Shown piece by piece: positions 6,735 through 11,595 of a stretch of 64,000 nt of DNA; position 1 is the first letter of the stretch; the number at the start of each line of letters is the position of its first letter. Made by a program: the position numbers and the translations under genes. The stretch comes from Gordonia bronchialis DSM 43247 (GTDB taxonomy: Bacteria; Actinomycetota; Actinomycetes; Mycobacteriales; Mycobacteriaceae): positions 3,224,001 to 3,288,000 of the forward strand of contig NC_013441.1 of the NCBI RefSeq assembly GCF_000024785.1, written 5' to 3'. Below the pieces are notes generated by a model. It was not told the origin of the DNA. It did not search any database and worked only from the letters and a program-made list of their open reading frames with translations.

Positions 6735-8269
6735 CGTCGGGACGCCTCGTCGTCGGCCAGACGCCGGGCAGCGGCCGCGAACGCGTCGCCGCGTCGGCCG
6801 TATCCGGCGAACATGTCCAACGACGCGGCGGCCGGCGCCAGCAGCACTGCCTGTGGTGTCGGGTCCGCGGCACCGGCGAGATGCCAGGCCTCGACGACGG
6901 CGCGATCCATGACCGCGACGGCCGGATCGGTGGGCGATCCGGGCGAGACGGGGTCCGCGTGATTCCGGGCTGAAGCCAGATTCCGGGCGCAAGCCATGCG
7001 ATGGACGTTCACCCCGCCATCGTCCCCTGTGAATACTGTGACTGTTGGGACTTCTGGGGCGTGTCGCGCGATCGCGTCGACGATGATGTCCCGATCCTGG
7101 CCGATGGCGACGACGCCGGCGAGACGATGGCGGACGGCATCGATCATCCGGTCGACCGACGCACCCTTGAGCAGTCCGCCGGCGATCAGGACGACCCGGT
7201 CGAATCCGGCGATCGCCGCCTGTGCGGCATGCGGGTTGGTGGCCTTGGAGTCGTCGACGAAGCGAATCCCCGCGCTCTCGGCGACGACCTCTCCGCGGTG
7301 GCCTGCCGGGCGGAACGCGGTGAGCGCGTCGGCGACGGCCGCGCGGTCGACGCCGGCGGCCAGCGCCAGCGCCGAGGCGGCCAGCGCGTCGGACAGACCG
7401 GACGGACCGGGCGGGTGGATGGCCTCGGCGGCGAGCAGGACACCGGAACCGAAGGCCCGGTCCACCAGCTCGGCCCCGACGACGCCGAGGTCGTCGGGCC
7501 CCGGCTCACCGAGGGTGAATCCCACGCGCCGGCCCTGCGTCGGGAGCCCTCCGGCCACCTCGTCGTCGAGCCCGACGACCGACACGGCGCCGGTCAGCGC
7601 ACGCGTCTTGGCGCCGGCGTACCCGTCGAAACCGCCATGCCAGTCCAGGTGATCCTCGGCGACGTTGAGGACCACCCCGGCGTCGGGACGCACCGACGGT
7701 GCCCAGTGCAATTGGAAGGACGAGAGCTCGGCGCACAGGACATCCACGCGCGGCGCCATCAGCATCGCGTCGAGGACCGGCAACCCGATGTTGCCGCAAG
7801 CGATACCCGAACGTCCTCCCGCGACGACGATGTCGGCGAGCATCGAGGTGGTGGTCGTCTTGCCGTTGGTCCCGGTGACGACCAGCCACGTGCGCGGCGG
7901 GCCGAGGATGCCGGCGCGGTCCACCCGCCAGGCGAGCTCCACCTCGCCCCACACCGGAACGGATCCGTCCGCCGCGGCGACGGCCACGGGGTGAGTCGGC
8001 GCGAAACCCGGCGACACCACCACCAGATCGGTGCGCGCGGTCCAGTCGTCGTCGGCGAGCAGATCATCGACGGTGACGAGTCCGGCACCGCGATCACGGA
8101 GTTCGGCAGCACCCGGTATCTGCGACCCGGCCACCTCGCCGGCGAACCGCGCGTCGGCCAGCGTCACGAACGCCCCCGCGTCGAGGAGAAACCGCGCGGC
8201 CGACATGCCTGCGGTGCCGGCGCCGGCGACCACCACGGCCCGGCCGTCGAGGATCAACGGCTCAGCCAT
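6731..8269 (-). CDS. murD: UDP-N-acetylmuramoyl-L-alanine--D-glutamate ligase MurD
   Basis: Adds D-Glu to UDP-MurNAc-L-Ala in the cytosol. The 512 aa contain the N-terminal nucleotide-type fold ([18 protein letters not shown]), the ATP loop [14 protein letters not shown], the ELSSFQL and [11 protein letters not shown] motifs and the C-terminal [11 protein letters not shown] signature of MurD. The ATG at 8269 overlaps the end of mraY by 8 nt; the longer open frame upstream reads through mraY and lacks support. The enzyme is about 60 aa longer than E. coli MurD, mostly in surface segments near residue 430, as in other actinobacteria. Confidence 0.95.
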
Positions 8270-9359
8270 TGGTGGTGAGGAACTCGCCGTAGAACAGCGA
8301 CAGACCCAGCGCACACGCGATGGCGGTGAGCAGCCAGAACCTGATGATCACCGTGGTCTCCGCCCAACCGCCGAGTTCGAAGTGGTGGTGGAAGGGCGCC
8401 ATCCGGAACACCCGTCTGCCCGTCGTGCGGAAGAACGCGATCTGGATGACCACCGACATGATCTCGGCGACGAAGAGCGCCCCGATCACGACGGCAAGCA
8501 GTTCGGTGCGCGAACAGATCGAGATGCCGGCGAGCATGCCGCCGAGTGCCAGCGAGCCGGTGTCGCCCATGAAGATCTTGGCCGGGGCCGCGTTCCACCA
8601 CAGGAACCCCAGGCAGGCACCTCCACCGGCGACGGCGATCAGGGCCAGATCGAGCGGGTCGCGCACGGGATAACAGGCGCGCGAGATCTCCGTGGTCGAC
8701 TTCACGCCGCCGCGGCAGGCGTTGACGAACTGGAAGAACGTGACCAACACGTAGGACCCGAGCACCATCGCCATCGAACCGGCGGCGAGACCGTCGAGGC
8801 CATCGGTGAAGTTCACCGCGTTCGACCAGGCCGCGACCACCAGCCAACAGAACACCACGAAGGCGACCGAGCCCATCGAGATCGCGTTGATGTCACGCAC
8901 ATACGACAGGTTGGTGCTGGCCGGCGTGTAGTCGTACTCGTTGTGGAACTGCAGGACGAGCACACCGAACAGGATCGCCGCGGCGAACTGTCCGATGGAT
9001 TTGGCGGTCTTGTTCAACCCGAGGTTGCGGTGTTTGCGGATCTTGATGATGTCGTCGAGGAATCCGACGCCGCCGAGGACGGTGGCCAGTCCCAGGACCA
9101 ACAGGCCCGACGCCGTGGGGCCGTTGCCGCCGTCGAGGAACAGACCCGCCAGGTGGGCGCCGAAGTAGCCCACCCAGAGGGCCGCGATGATGGCCACCCC
9201 ACCCATCGACGGGGTGCCCCGCTTGGTCTGGTGACTCTTGGGACCCTCGACGCGGATCTCCTGGCCGAAGCCCTGACGCGAGAAGACCTTGATGAGCACG
9301 GGTGTCAGCAGGATGGAGACGGCCACCGCGATCGCACCCGCGATGAGAATCTGTATCAC
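8262..9359 (-). CDS. mraY: Phospho-MurNAc-pentapeptide transferase MraY
   Basis: Integral membrane enzyme that transfers phospho-MurNAc-pentapeptide to the polyprenyl phosphate carrier, forming lipid I. The 365 aa span about ten hydrophobic helices and retain the substrate-site motifs [55 protein letters not shown] and the HHHFE signature ([11 protein letters not shown]). The GTG start overlaps the stop of the murF-like gene (GTGA) and follows a strong purine-rich ribosome site. Nothing is degenerate here, so the lipid I step looks functional even though the neighbouring murF is not complete. Confidence 0.97.
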
Positions 9360-9928
9360 TGCTCATCCCCCTTGGTCGGTGTTGGTCCGGCGTGCTCGTC
9401 GGTGCTGTCGTAAGACCGGACGGCCAGTCCCAGTTCGGCGGCCACCCCGCCGAGCAGACCGGCCAGATCGGTTCGGTCGGCGGCCACGAGTATCACGTCT
9501 GCGGCCCCCGGCCGCCAATCCGGGTCGTCGCGCACAAGCTCACGTGCCTCCTCGGTGGACTCCACCAGACGCACCTCGTCGCCCCATGAGCCTTCCATGA
9601 CCGCCCCCTGGGTCAGCGCGCGGACCGACCGGGAGTCACCGACGCACAGGGTCTTGTCGACGGCCAGACGCACGGCGAGTCGCCCCACGTGATCGTGTTC
9701 GACGACGGCCTCGTTCTCGGTGAGTCCCGCATCGACGGCGAGTTCGCCCAGCCACGCCCACGTCCGCGGGGTGCGGCCGCTCTCGGCGGAGGCGCGCAGC
9801 GCATCGCGCACCTCGGCGAGGGTGCGCAGCAGCACCCGCACCTGCGCGGCGGTGACCCCGGTGGGAGCGGTGATCACGGTCAGCGGCGGCGCAACCTCGT
9901 GGCCGGTGGCCGGCGTCGGATCGGTCAT
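9356..9928 (-). CDS. MurF-like C-terminal Mur-ligase domain protein (lacks N-terminal and ATPase domains)
   Basis: A 190-aa protein in the usual murF position that matches only the C-terminal domain of MurF. Recognisable segments are [28 protein letters not shown] and [11 protein letters not shown], which line up with MurF as I remember it. The UDP-binding domain and the central ATP domain with its GTNGKT loop (about 300 residues) are absent: murE ends inside its start codon, leaving no room. The DAYNANP-type motif that opens this domain in MurF is replaced by ITAPTGVT, and the usual VLVK lysine appears as VILVAAD. The frame is open, and both ends keep 4-nt overlaps (ATGA with murE, GTGA with mraY). 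It cannot be a MurF ligase alone; role unknown. Confidence 0.8.
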
Positions 9929-11595
9929 GCGTCACCGTCCGCGTCGTCGGTCACCAGACCGTCGAGGACCTGCGCGACCACGTCTCGATCGTCGAAGGGA
10001 TGTTTCACCCCGTTGATCTCCTGTCCCGTCTCATGTCCCTTGCCCGCGATGAGCACGGTGTCGCCCGGCCGCGCCCAGTGCAGGGCCGTGGCGATGGCCT
10101 CGGCGCGCCCGCCCACCTCACGGACCTCCTCCGCGCCGGCCGGCCGGTCCGCCCGTCCGACGGCCCGCGCCCCGGCCAGAACCTCGGCCCGGATGGCCGC
10201 GGGGTCCTCGGTGCGCGGGTTGTCGTCGGTGACCACGACGAATTCGGCGCCGCGGGCCGCTGCCTCCCCCATGAGCGGCCGCTTGGCGGTGTCACGGTCA
10301 CCGCCCGCACCGATCACGATGGCCACCCGACCCGCCTCGGCGCGCGCCGCCGCCTGTGCTCGCAGGGTCGCGAGCACGGCCTGCACCGCTCCGGGTTTGT
10401 GGGCATAGTCGACGAGCGCGAGAAACGGCTGTCCCCGATCGACCCGCTGAAGTCGGCCCGGTACCGACACCGTCGCGATCGCACCGATCGCCGTCGCCGC
10501 GTCCACCCCCGCGCAGTCGGCGACCGCGACCGCGAGCAACGCGTTGGCCACGTTGTATCGCCCGGGCAGCGGGACGACGAGTTCGGCGTCACCGTCCGTC
10601 CCGGTGATCGGGGTGCGCGACGTTCCGTCGGCGTCGACGACGGACTCCGCGGCATGCCACTGCGCGGGTACCCCTCCGGTCGACACCGTGACCGGCTGCC
10701 GTGCACTCTGACGCGCGGCCGGACGTGCGAGTTCGGCCATCCGGGCGCCCCACTCGTCGTCGACGCAGATGACCGATCGGACCGCGTGGACCGGGGACGA
10801 CGGAACGAATAACTGCGCCTTGGCCTCGAAGTAGGCGGCCATCGTCGGGTGGAAGTCGAGGTGATCCTGGGACAGGTTGGTGAAGGCGCCCAGTGCGAAA
10901 TGCGATCCGTCGACCCGGCCGAGGGCCAGGGCGTGGCTCGACACCTCCATCACCACCGCGTCGACGCCGCGCTCGAGCATCACCGCCAGCAGTGCCTGCA
11001 GGGTCGGGGCCTCCGGTGTGGTCAGCGAACTCGGCTGCGCCACACCGTCGATGCGGGTCTCGACCGTGCCGATCAGTCCTACCGACGAGCCGGCGGCCAG
11101 CAATGCCGCCTCCACCATGTACGAGGTCGTGGTCTTGCCGGACGTGCCGGTGATGCCGATCAGTTTGAGTCGCTGGGAGGGATTGCCGTAGATCCGTGCC
11201 GACACGCCGCCGAGGACCGTCCGCGGCTCCGGGTGCACAAGCGCCACCACGGACGCCTCGGGCGGCAGCACGCGCGACAGTTCGGCCCGGCCGGCCGGAT
11301 CGGTGAGGATCGCGGTCGCGCCCGCGGCGACCGCATCGGCGGCGAATCGGGCTCCGTGGGTGGTGCTTCCGGGCAGCGCCGCGAACAGATCACCGCTGCG
11401 CACCTCCTGCGCGCGCAGCGTGACGCCGGTGACCTCGGTAGCGGATTCGGCACCACCGATCAGGTCGAGGCGGGCCCCGGTGGACGTCGAGAGAACTGAC
11501 ACCGCGGTGGGCGCGACGCTCGTCGGCCGCAGCGCTGCGGACACCTGCCGACCGGCCTTCGACGTGCCACGGGAGGGACGACGACCAGACGCCAT
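9925..11595 (-). CDS. murE: UDP-MurNAc-tripeptide synthetase MurE (meso-DAP adding)
   Basis: Cytosolic ligase adding meso-diaminopimelate to UDP-MurNAc-L-Ala-D-Glu. The 556 aa have the MurE N-domain, ATP loop GITGTSGKTTTSYM, the EVSSHAL and NLSQDHLDFH motifs, and the DNPR motif (VVTDDNPRTEDP) that marks diaminopimelate rather than lysine enzymes. The C-terminal GKGHETGQEI is also typical. The ATG at 11595 follows a GAGGAGG ribosome site. It begins a new coupled unit after a 103-bp gap from pbpB, and its stop overlaps the murF-like start. About 35 poorly conserved residues precede the domain. Confidence 0.96.
   Translation of the reverse strand: MASGRRPSRGTSKAGRQVSAALRPTSVAPTAVSVLSTSTGARLDLIGGAESATEVTGVTLRAQEVRSGDLFAALPGSTTHGARFAADAVAAGATAILTDPAGRAELSRVLPPEASVVALVHPEPRTVLGGVSARIYGNPSQRLKLIGITGTSGKTTTSYMVEAALLAAGSSVGLIGTVETRIDGVAQPSSLTTPEAPTLQALLAVMLERGVDAVVMEVSSHALALGRVDGSHFALGAFTNLSQDHLDFHPTMAAYFEAKAQLFVPSSPVHAVRSVICVDDEWGARMAELARPAARQSARQPVTVSTGGVPAQWHAAESVVDADGTSRTPITGTDGDAELVVPLPGRYNVANALLAVAVADCAGVDAATAIGAIATVSVPGRLQRVDRGQPFLALVDYAHKPGAVQAVLATLRAQAAARAEAGRVAIVIGAGGDRDTAKRPLMGEAAARGAEFVVVTDDNPRTEDPAAIRAEVLAGARAVGRADRPAGAEEVREVGGRAEAIATALHWARPGDTVLIAGKGHETGQEINGVKHPFDDRDVVAQVLDGLVTDDADGDA

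Follow-up and report, generated by a model that had tools for sequence, protein, structure and literature searches.

An orphan MurF C-terminal domain retained between murE and mraY in Gordonia as a candidate non-catalytic docking module

The murF slot of Gordonia bronchialis encodes an orphan C-terminal domain of MurF that lacks the catalytic motifs of the enzyme, and a full-length MurF of foreign type is encoded elsewhere in the genome. The orphan is best explained, with a probability of roughly 0.55, as the non-catalytic docking domain of the native MurF, which would have been separated from its enzyme and would serve as an adaptor on or beside MurE. Retention of the domain under selection after replacement of the enzyme suggests that the native MurF carried out a further task, one beyond the reach of its replacement. 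Mur ligases are usually viewed as enzymes and as targets for drugs, and their assembly into a physical complex is disputed. Natural MurE–MurF fusions and pseudoenzymes are already known kinds of protein; what would be new here is a solitary MurF domain whose non-catalytic role has become separated from the enzyme during evolution.

The window analyzed is a 64,000-nucleotide stretch of the G. bronchialis genome. On its reverse strand, murE (9925..11595) and mraY (8262..9359), both assigned by Pfam, flank the domain gene (9356..9928), which overlaps each neighbor by 4 nt, as described in the initial annotation. The 190-aa product is predicted by structure modeling to form a complete MurF C-terminal domain with a confident fold, and its best matches in a structure search are MurF C-terminal domains, which align across the whole domain. 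A Pfam search of the protein yielded no match to the central ATPase domain with the GKT motif (PF08245), no match to Mur_ligase_C (PF02875) at E-values up to 1 and no family assignment, and its TIGR01143 (MurF) score of 16.7 bits lies far below the curated cut-off of 288.6. Pfam and the model together uphold the earlier proposal that the murF slot contains only the C-terminal domain of MurF and that the UDP-binding and ATPase domains are gone. The orphan thus resembles MurF (TIGR01143) in the location of its gene between murE and mraY, in the C-terminal domain fold and in the HD..GR..VR and EGSWGDE residues found in the 28 full-length MurFs compared, but lacks the UDP-binding and ATPase domains and the NDxYNANP, GEM.EL and VLVK motifs. 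With its catalytic motifs lost, its fold retained and its sequence under purifying selection, the domain has the features of a pseudoenzyme. An assembly or sequencing deletion in G. bronchialis is practically inconceivable as the origin of this state, because the same state is observed in 59 of 59 Gordonia genomes and is shared by named records of Gordonia, Williamsia and Jongsikchunia.

The motif losses were defined against 28 full-length MurFs encoded in dcw clusters, which represent 28 of the 41 full-length named loci described below. NDxYNANP, GEM.EL and the VLVK lysine are missing from the orphan domain; we take these to be the C-terminal catalytic motifs of MurF, which presumably contact ATP and D-Ala-D-Ala. 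In G. bronchialis, the NDxYNANP site reads TAPTGVTA in the column comparison (residues 20–27; 9848..9871, reverse strand), and the VLVK lysine is replaced by an alanine (residue 149; 9482..9484, reverse strand). The comparison with full-length MurFs thereby confirms the loss of the DAYNANP motif and the VLVK lysine that had been read from the G. bronchialis sequence. The losses are general: YNAN and V[KR][AGS]S each occur in 0 of 59 domains, whereas YNANP and the lysine motif are present in 28 of 28 full-length MurFs, and the VLVK position is lysine in all 28 enzymes and alanine in 92% of the 59 domains. This pattern, as read from the sequences, speaks against substrate or nucleotide binding by the domain. 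It bears on the idea, raised in the initial annotation, that the orphan senses or buffers a small molecule (a nucleotide, D-Ala-D-Ala or UDP-MurNAc-peptide) through the former MurF substrate site. Descent from a domain of a substrate-binding enzyme fits such a role, but with the three motifs lost and conservation located mostly elsewhere, a sensor is a very improbable reading.

The residues that are kept form a set separable from the lost catalytic motifs and include two patches. Patch A (HD..GR..VR; residues 78–87 on helix 2; 9668..9697, reverse strand) contains H78 and G82, each conserved in 58 of the 59 domains, and D79, R83, V86 and R87, each conserved in all 59. Its six residues are 100% conserved in the 28 full-length MurFs, and the replacement MurF has only the histidine. 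Patch B (residues 107–118, [12 protein letters not shown]; 9575..9610, reverse strand) extends from the end of helix 3 into the loop that precedes strand 4, and its Q107, G108, E112, G113, S114, W115, G116 and E118 residues are found in 59 of 59 domains. The residues kept in at least 58 of the 59 domains are R35, R55, W57, H78, D79, G82, R83, V86, R87, A89, D91, G97, R100, A104, Q107, G108, E112, G113, S114, W115, G116, E118, P140 and D144. Among them, R55, W57, H78, D79, G82, R83, V86, R87, G97, G108, E112-G116, E118 and D144 are also 96–100% conserved in the full-length set, and R35, A89, D91, R100, A104, Q107 and P140 are either more strictly conserved in the domains or peculiar to them. 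The retained residues ([18 protein letters not shown]) are common to full-length MurFs of related genera and absent from the replacement enzyme. The sequence G[AT][VI][MQ]EGSWG[DE]E is matched by 58 of the 59 domains, the other one reading EGSWGAE, and EGSWG occurs in 0 of 38 replacement-type MurFs (33 from Gordonia, one from Williamsia and four from the distant family f3).

In the model, the missing motifs come after strands 1, 2 and 5, which is the active-site edge of such a fold. Most of the kept residues map to helices 2 and 3 and to the loops before strands 3, 4 and 5, with R55, W57, G97 and R100 as exceptions. The faces are assigned from the strand and helix order of the model rather than from coordinates. 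The domain alignment comprises 53 of the 59 domains; because the initial Met is missing from its first row, model and alignment numbers are one lower than protein numbers.

The orphan domain is widespread in the clade. It occupies the slot between murE and mraY in all 59 Gordonia genomes and in 9 of 9 genomes from five other genus groups that contain only a foreign-type MurF; the murE-to-mraY gap in these nine is 458–655 nt. A survey of 71 genomes of the family identified 57 with a native-type full MurF, 13 with the foreign type only and one, 66% complete, with neither at the cut-off. The foreign-only genomes were distinguished by E-value (1e-72 to 1e-80 vs below 1e-130). These 13 genomes (four Gordonia and the nine from the other genus groups) all carry the orphan domain. 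In one of the 57 native-type genomes (G468), MurF was matched in two pieces. Among the best 80 of 111 named loci, 39 are short or fused forms from Gordonia, Williamsia and Jongsikchunia, and 41 are full-length forms from Rhodococcus, Rhodococcoides, Prescottella, Arthrobacter, Tomitella, Tersicoccus, Aldersonia, Speluncibacter and a Micrococcaceae MAG; murE is absent from the contig of one full-length locus (L050). In 197 genomes of the class, three of them Gordonia, the domain profile matched 105 and gave no match in 92, with at most 18 candidates scored per genome. The matching open frames outside Gordonia are at least 463 aa long except in G513 and G541. The frame is 251 aa long in G513 and 339 aa long in G541, where the match lies near a contig start. 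The initial annotation had allowed that the short form might be a standard, already characterized gene of the genus. A short or fused form is indeed normal in Gordonia; the second half of that statement did not hold, in that PMC full text of open-licence papers contained no paper found to describe this orphan MurF domain state.

The genome of G. bronchialis contains six Mur_ligase_M places over the cut-off. All were considered as candidates for the missing MurF, and three of them are MurE, MurC and MurD in the dcw cluster. By motifs and neighbors, we take L002 to be MurF; L005, which adjoins a GatD-like ORF, presumably is MurT, and L006 reads, in our assignment, as FolC. The full-length MurF (439 aa; G000:C1:456310-457626) contains GKTS, NDAYNANP and VLVKGS, and it is the only match to itself at an E-value of 1e-30 in the genome. 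Its gene lies 47 bp from a divergently transcribed ddl, which encodes the only strong Ddl of the genome (233 bits; the other eight PF07478 hits score at most 42 bits). Loss of MurF from the genome is rejected by this one full copy, which had been predicted to exist and was found, with its GKTS motif, next to ddl; D-Ala-D-Ala addition is therefore relocated, not lost.

Every one of the 59 Gordonia genomes encodes the foreign-type MurF, with 65–80% identity to the G. bronchialis protein in the other 58. One Gordonia genome (G008) has extra MurF fragments at C6:10118-10979, which show 47–53% identity to the foreign MurF, lie in two frames, one with an internal stop, and possibly represent contamination or a decaying extra copy. 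Outside Gordonia, in 397 genomes of the order, the best MurF matches listed are one Williamsia genome (G449, 66%) and four genomes of family f3 (61–65%), and the next listed matches reach at most 53%. Among the genomes searched and the matches listed, the G. bronchialis MurF and Ddl are closer to f3 (61–65%) than to the native-type Mycobacteriaceae (39–52%). For Ddl, identity is 61–62% to three f3 genomes and 45–51% to seven other Mycobacteriaceae. In the MurF tree, Gordonia, Williamsia and f3 are separated by a long branch (SH-aLRT 100) from all 29 dcw MurFs included, 15 of which are from Mycobacteriaceae; this tree and the MurE+MraY tree below are quick trees with SH-aLRT support only. By these sequence comparisons, the MurF of Gordonia and its neighboring Ddl are both xenologous. 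The ddl–murF pair probably moved as a unit, in one direction or the other between f3 and the Gordonia–Williamsia clade, because Ddl agrees with MurF and the two genes are divergent neighbors in f3 too. The case documents the replacement of an essential enzyme along with the enzyme supplying its substrate. One genome of genus group g92 (G456) encodes, besides the MurF-paired Ddl, a second and more distant Ddl (C26:617225-618238; 41% identity), which is possibly the ancestral Ddl and would mark an intermediate state.

Family f3 has the same MurF type and an empty slot. In 5 of 5 f3 genomes (L210-L214), mraY directly follows murE, with neither murF nor the domain between them. A genome-wide search of f3 with the domain profile, run without a positive control in the same search, gave no match; the same profile matched 105 of the 197 class genomes. 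In the four f3 genomes with a foreign-type MurF, murF is divergent and near ddl; about 760 bp and another ORF separate the two genes in G076. The remaining genome, G099, had no MurF hit at an E-value of 1e-40 with four candidates scored per genome. Since f3 uses the same MurF type without the domain, the function of the domain is dispensable in some lineages. This finding also weighs on a reading in which the orphan assists or regulates the foreign MurF, or its Ddl, in trans and supplies a surface that the foreign enzyme lacks. Domain and foreign MurF occur together in all 68 clade genomes examined, and the foreign MurF is devoid of the patch that the domain keeps, both of which speak for such a partnership. 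However, the four f3 genomes manage without the domain, and the domain is tied to MurE and not to the distant murF, which makes the partnership distinctly improbable.

The core of the domain is under purifying selection about as strong as that on MurE. Omega was estimated by counting (Nei–Gojobori with Jukes–Cantor correction, own script). In 31 close pairs (murE dS 0.05–0.6), pooled omega is 0.088 for MurE, 0.030 for MraY and 0.223 for the domain, with 0.073 in its core (residues 56–122) and 0.342 in the remainder. All 10 disjoint pairs show a domain omega below 1 and a core omega below that of the non-core part. Over 1242 pairs with domain dS of 0.05–1.2, the median omega is 0.53 for the whole domain, 0.27 for the core and 0.79 outside it; because these medians are higher, the domain was compared with murE and mraY in the 31-pair subset. 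The dS of the domain is similar in size to that of murE, and constraint from an antisense frame would therefore not be needed to explain the pattern. The occurrence throughout the clade, an omega well below 1 and repeated fusion to MurE bear out the initial view of an old, maintained domain. They leave little room for a spacer or decaying pseudogene that merely carries translation from murE to mraY, although the 4-nt overlaps on both sides in G. bronchialis would suit it. Selection on the protein core, residues invariant across the whole genus, an mraY overlap in only 2 of 59 Gordonia genomes, the existence of fused forms and the direct murE–mraY junction of f3 render the spacer reading hardly credible.

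The domain is physically linked to MurE at the gene or protein level. A separate domain ORF of 148–210 aa is found in 41 of the 59 Gordonia genomes, and a 4-nt overlap between its chosen start and the stop of murE occurs in 39 of them. In the other 18 genomes, 17 called by script and one assigned from reading its hits, the domain is fused in frame after MurE in chains of 674–715 aa, with starts chosen by the script. Overlap or fusion with murE is thus observed in 57 of 59 genomes. The fused or separate state changes six times on the MurE+MraY tree, at least four of the changes being forced by starred branches, which implies that the domain switched several times between a linked gene and a MurE tail; the counts do not separate fusion from fission. 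The tree has 63 rows, with the state known for 62, and one row (G039) has 42% of its columns filled. The repeated fusions point to MurE, and not to MraY, which the initial annotation had named along with MurF as a possible target of regulation, as the protein with which the domain travels. A model of a fused MurE–domain chain has a pLDDT of 88.6 and a pTM of 0.71 and comes with no pairwise error, hence gives no arrangement of MurE and domain.

The overlap or fusion in nearly all Gordonia genomes and the repeated fusion or fission changes also favor a narrower role, in which the orphan is an allosteric or stabilizing subunit of MurE only, binding MurE, in cis when fused, and setting its activity or stability. 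This role is unlikely, given that full-length MurF, a protein separate from MurE, conserves the patch to the same degree. Furthermore, a two-hybrid analysis in Mycobacterium tuberculosis (PMC3605390) reports no interaction among the Mur synthetases, which argues against direct MurE contact in that species. Gene fusion shows a shared place and dose and not necessarily binding.

A docking domain separated from the native MurF accommodates these observations. The native MurF of the dcw cluster would have been both a ligase and a docking platform. The foreign MurF, paired with its own Ddl, would then have taken over catalysis, after which the ligase parts of the native MurF would have decayed; the platform is proposed to have stayed because a partner still needs it. 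The kept residues would make up a docking face located, for the most part, on the side of the Rossmann-like domain that is remote from the active-site edge. In ordinary actinobacteria with the docking face, it would allow MurF to associate with some component of the machinery for cell-wall synthesis or division. The Gordonia orphan would still provide this contact, acting on or beside MurE, and the new MurF would provide catalysis only. Repeated fusion to MurE suggests that the platform is of use at the same place and time as MurE, and MurE or a MurE-containing complex is the likeliest docking partner. Counting against docking, the patch is not universal in MurFs, the domain profile has no match in 92 of the 197 class genomes, f3 does without the domain, and omega rises to 0.34 in the fast-evolving residues beyond the core.

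Contacts of Mur synthetases with other proteins have been described and supply candidate partners, not proof. In the M. tuberculosis two-hybrid study (PMC3605390, with a figure corrected in PMC10965061), FtsZ, FtsW, FtsQ, SepF and Wag31 contact Mur synthetases, and MurF is the only one of these synthetases seen to contact DdlA and the NamH homologue. A natural MurE–MurF fusion of Bordetella pertussis binds MurG (PMC6420597). Like the chains of 18 of the 59 Gordonia genomes, the Bordetella protein joins MurE and MurF-derived sequence in one polypeptide. However, both Bordetella enzymes are complete and active, whereas the Gordonia chains consist of MurE and a single C-terminal domain without catalytic motifs and do not combine two complete ligases.

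Two other Mur ligase relatives differ from the orphan. PAP11 presumably has a non-catalytic role in the plastid RNA polymerase, and MurT keeps its ATPase domain and a catalytic role. Like the orphan, PAP11 (PDB 8qma, 8w9z and others, encountered among the hits of the structure searches) is a Mur ligase relative, placed inside a large complex, the plastid RNA polymerase, but it is a nearly whole MurE-like protein from another process and another lineage. In contrast to MurT of the MurT/GatD amidotransferase (PDB 7q8e, 6h5e), the orphan has neither the ATPase domain nor the catalytic motifs.

The clade lost the native MurF yet kept one surface under strong selection, which marks residues of a probable non-catalytic role and makes the 190-aa domain a bait for a partner search. 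The prediction extends to the MurFs of Streptomyces, Rhodococcus and mycobacteria, which contain the same residues. Tentatively, and at somewhat less than even odds, the MurF of many actinobacteria, including Mycobacterium and Streptomyces, may combine a ligase with a docking platform (HD..GR..VR plus EGSWGxE) that organizes the cytoplasmic peptidoglycan machinery, and Gordonia and Williamsia would represent a natural separation of the two functions. EGSWG or a close variant is present in full-length MurFs of Rhodococcus and Arthrobacter, and EGSWG or EGSWD in 8 of 10 further MurFs fetched, including Mycobacterium-like and Streptomyces-like proteins whose likeness to these genera is inferred. 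The patch is missing in 6 of 8 dcw MurFs of other families examined. Of 30 full-length Mycobacteriaceae MurFs, five (L229, L230, L236, L241 and L243) depart from the strict GxxxEGSWG pattern: they have EGSWDNE, EGSWNNE or EGSFDNE, a variant common to two genus groups. The other two of the ten further MurFs, from loci in small Corynebacterium-like Mycobacteriaceae genomes (L280 and L281), are full-length MurFs with YNANP and VLVK and without EGSWGxE, the mirror image of the Gordonia domain.
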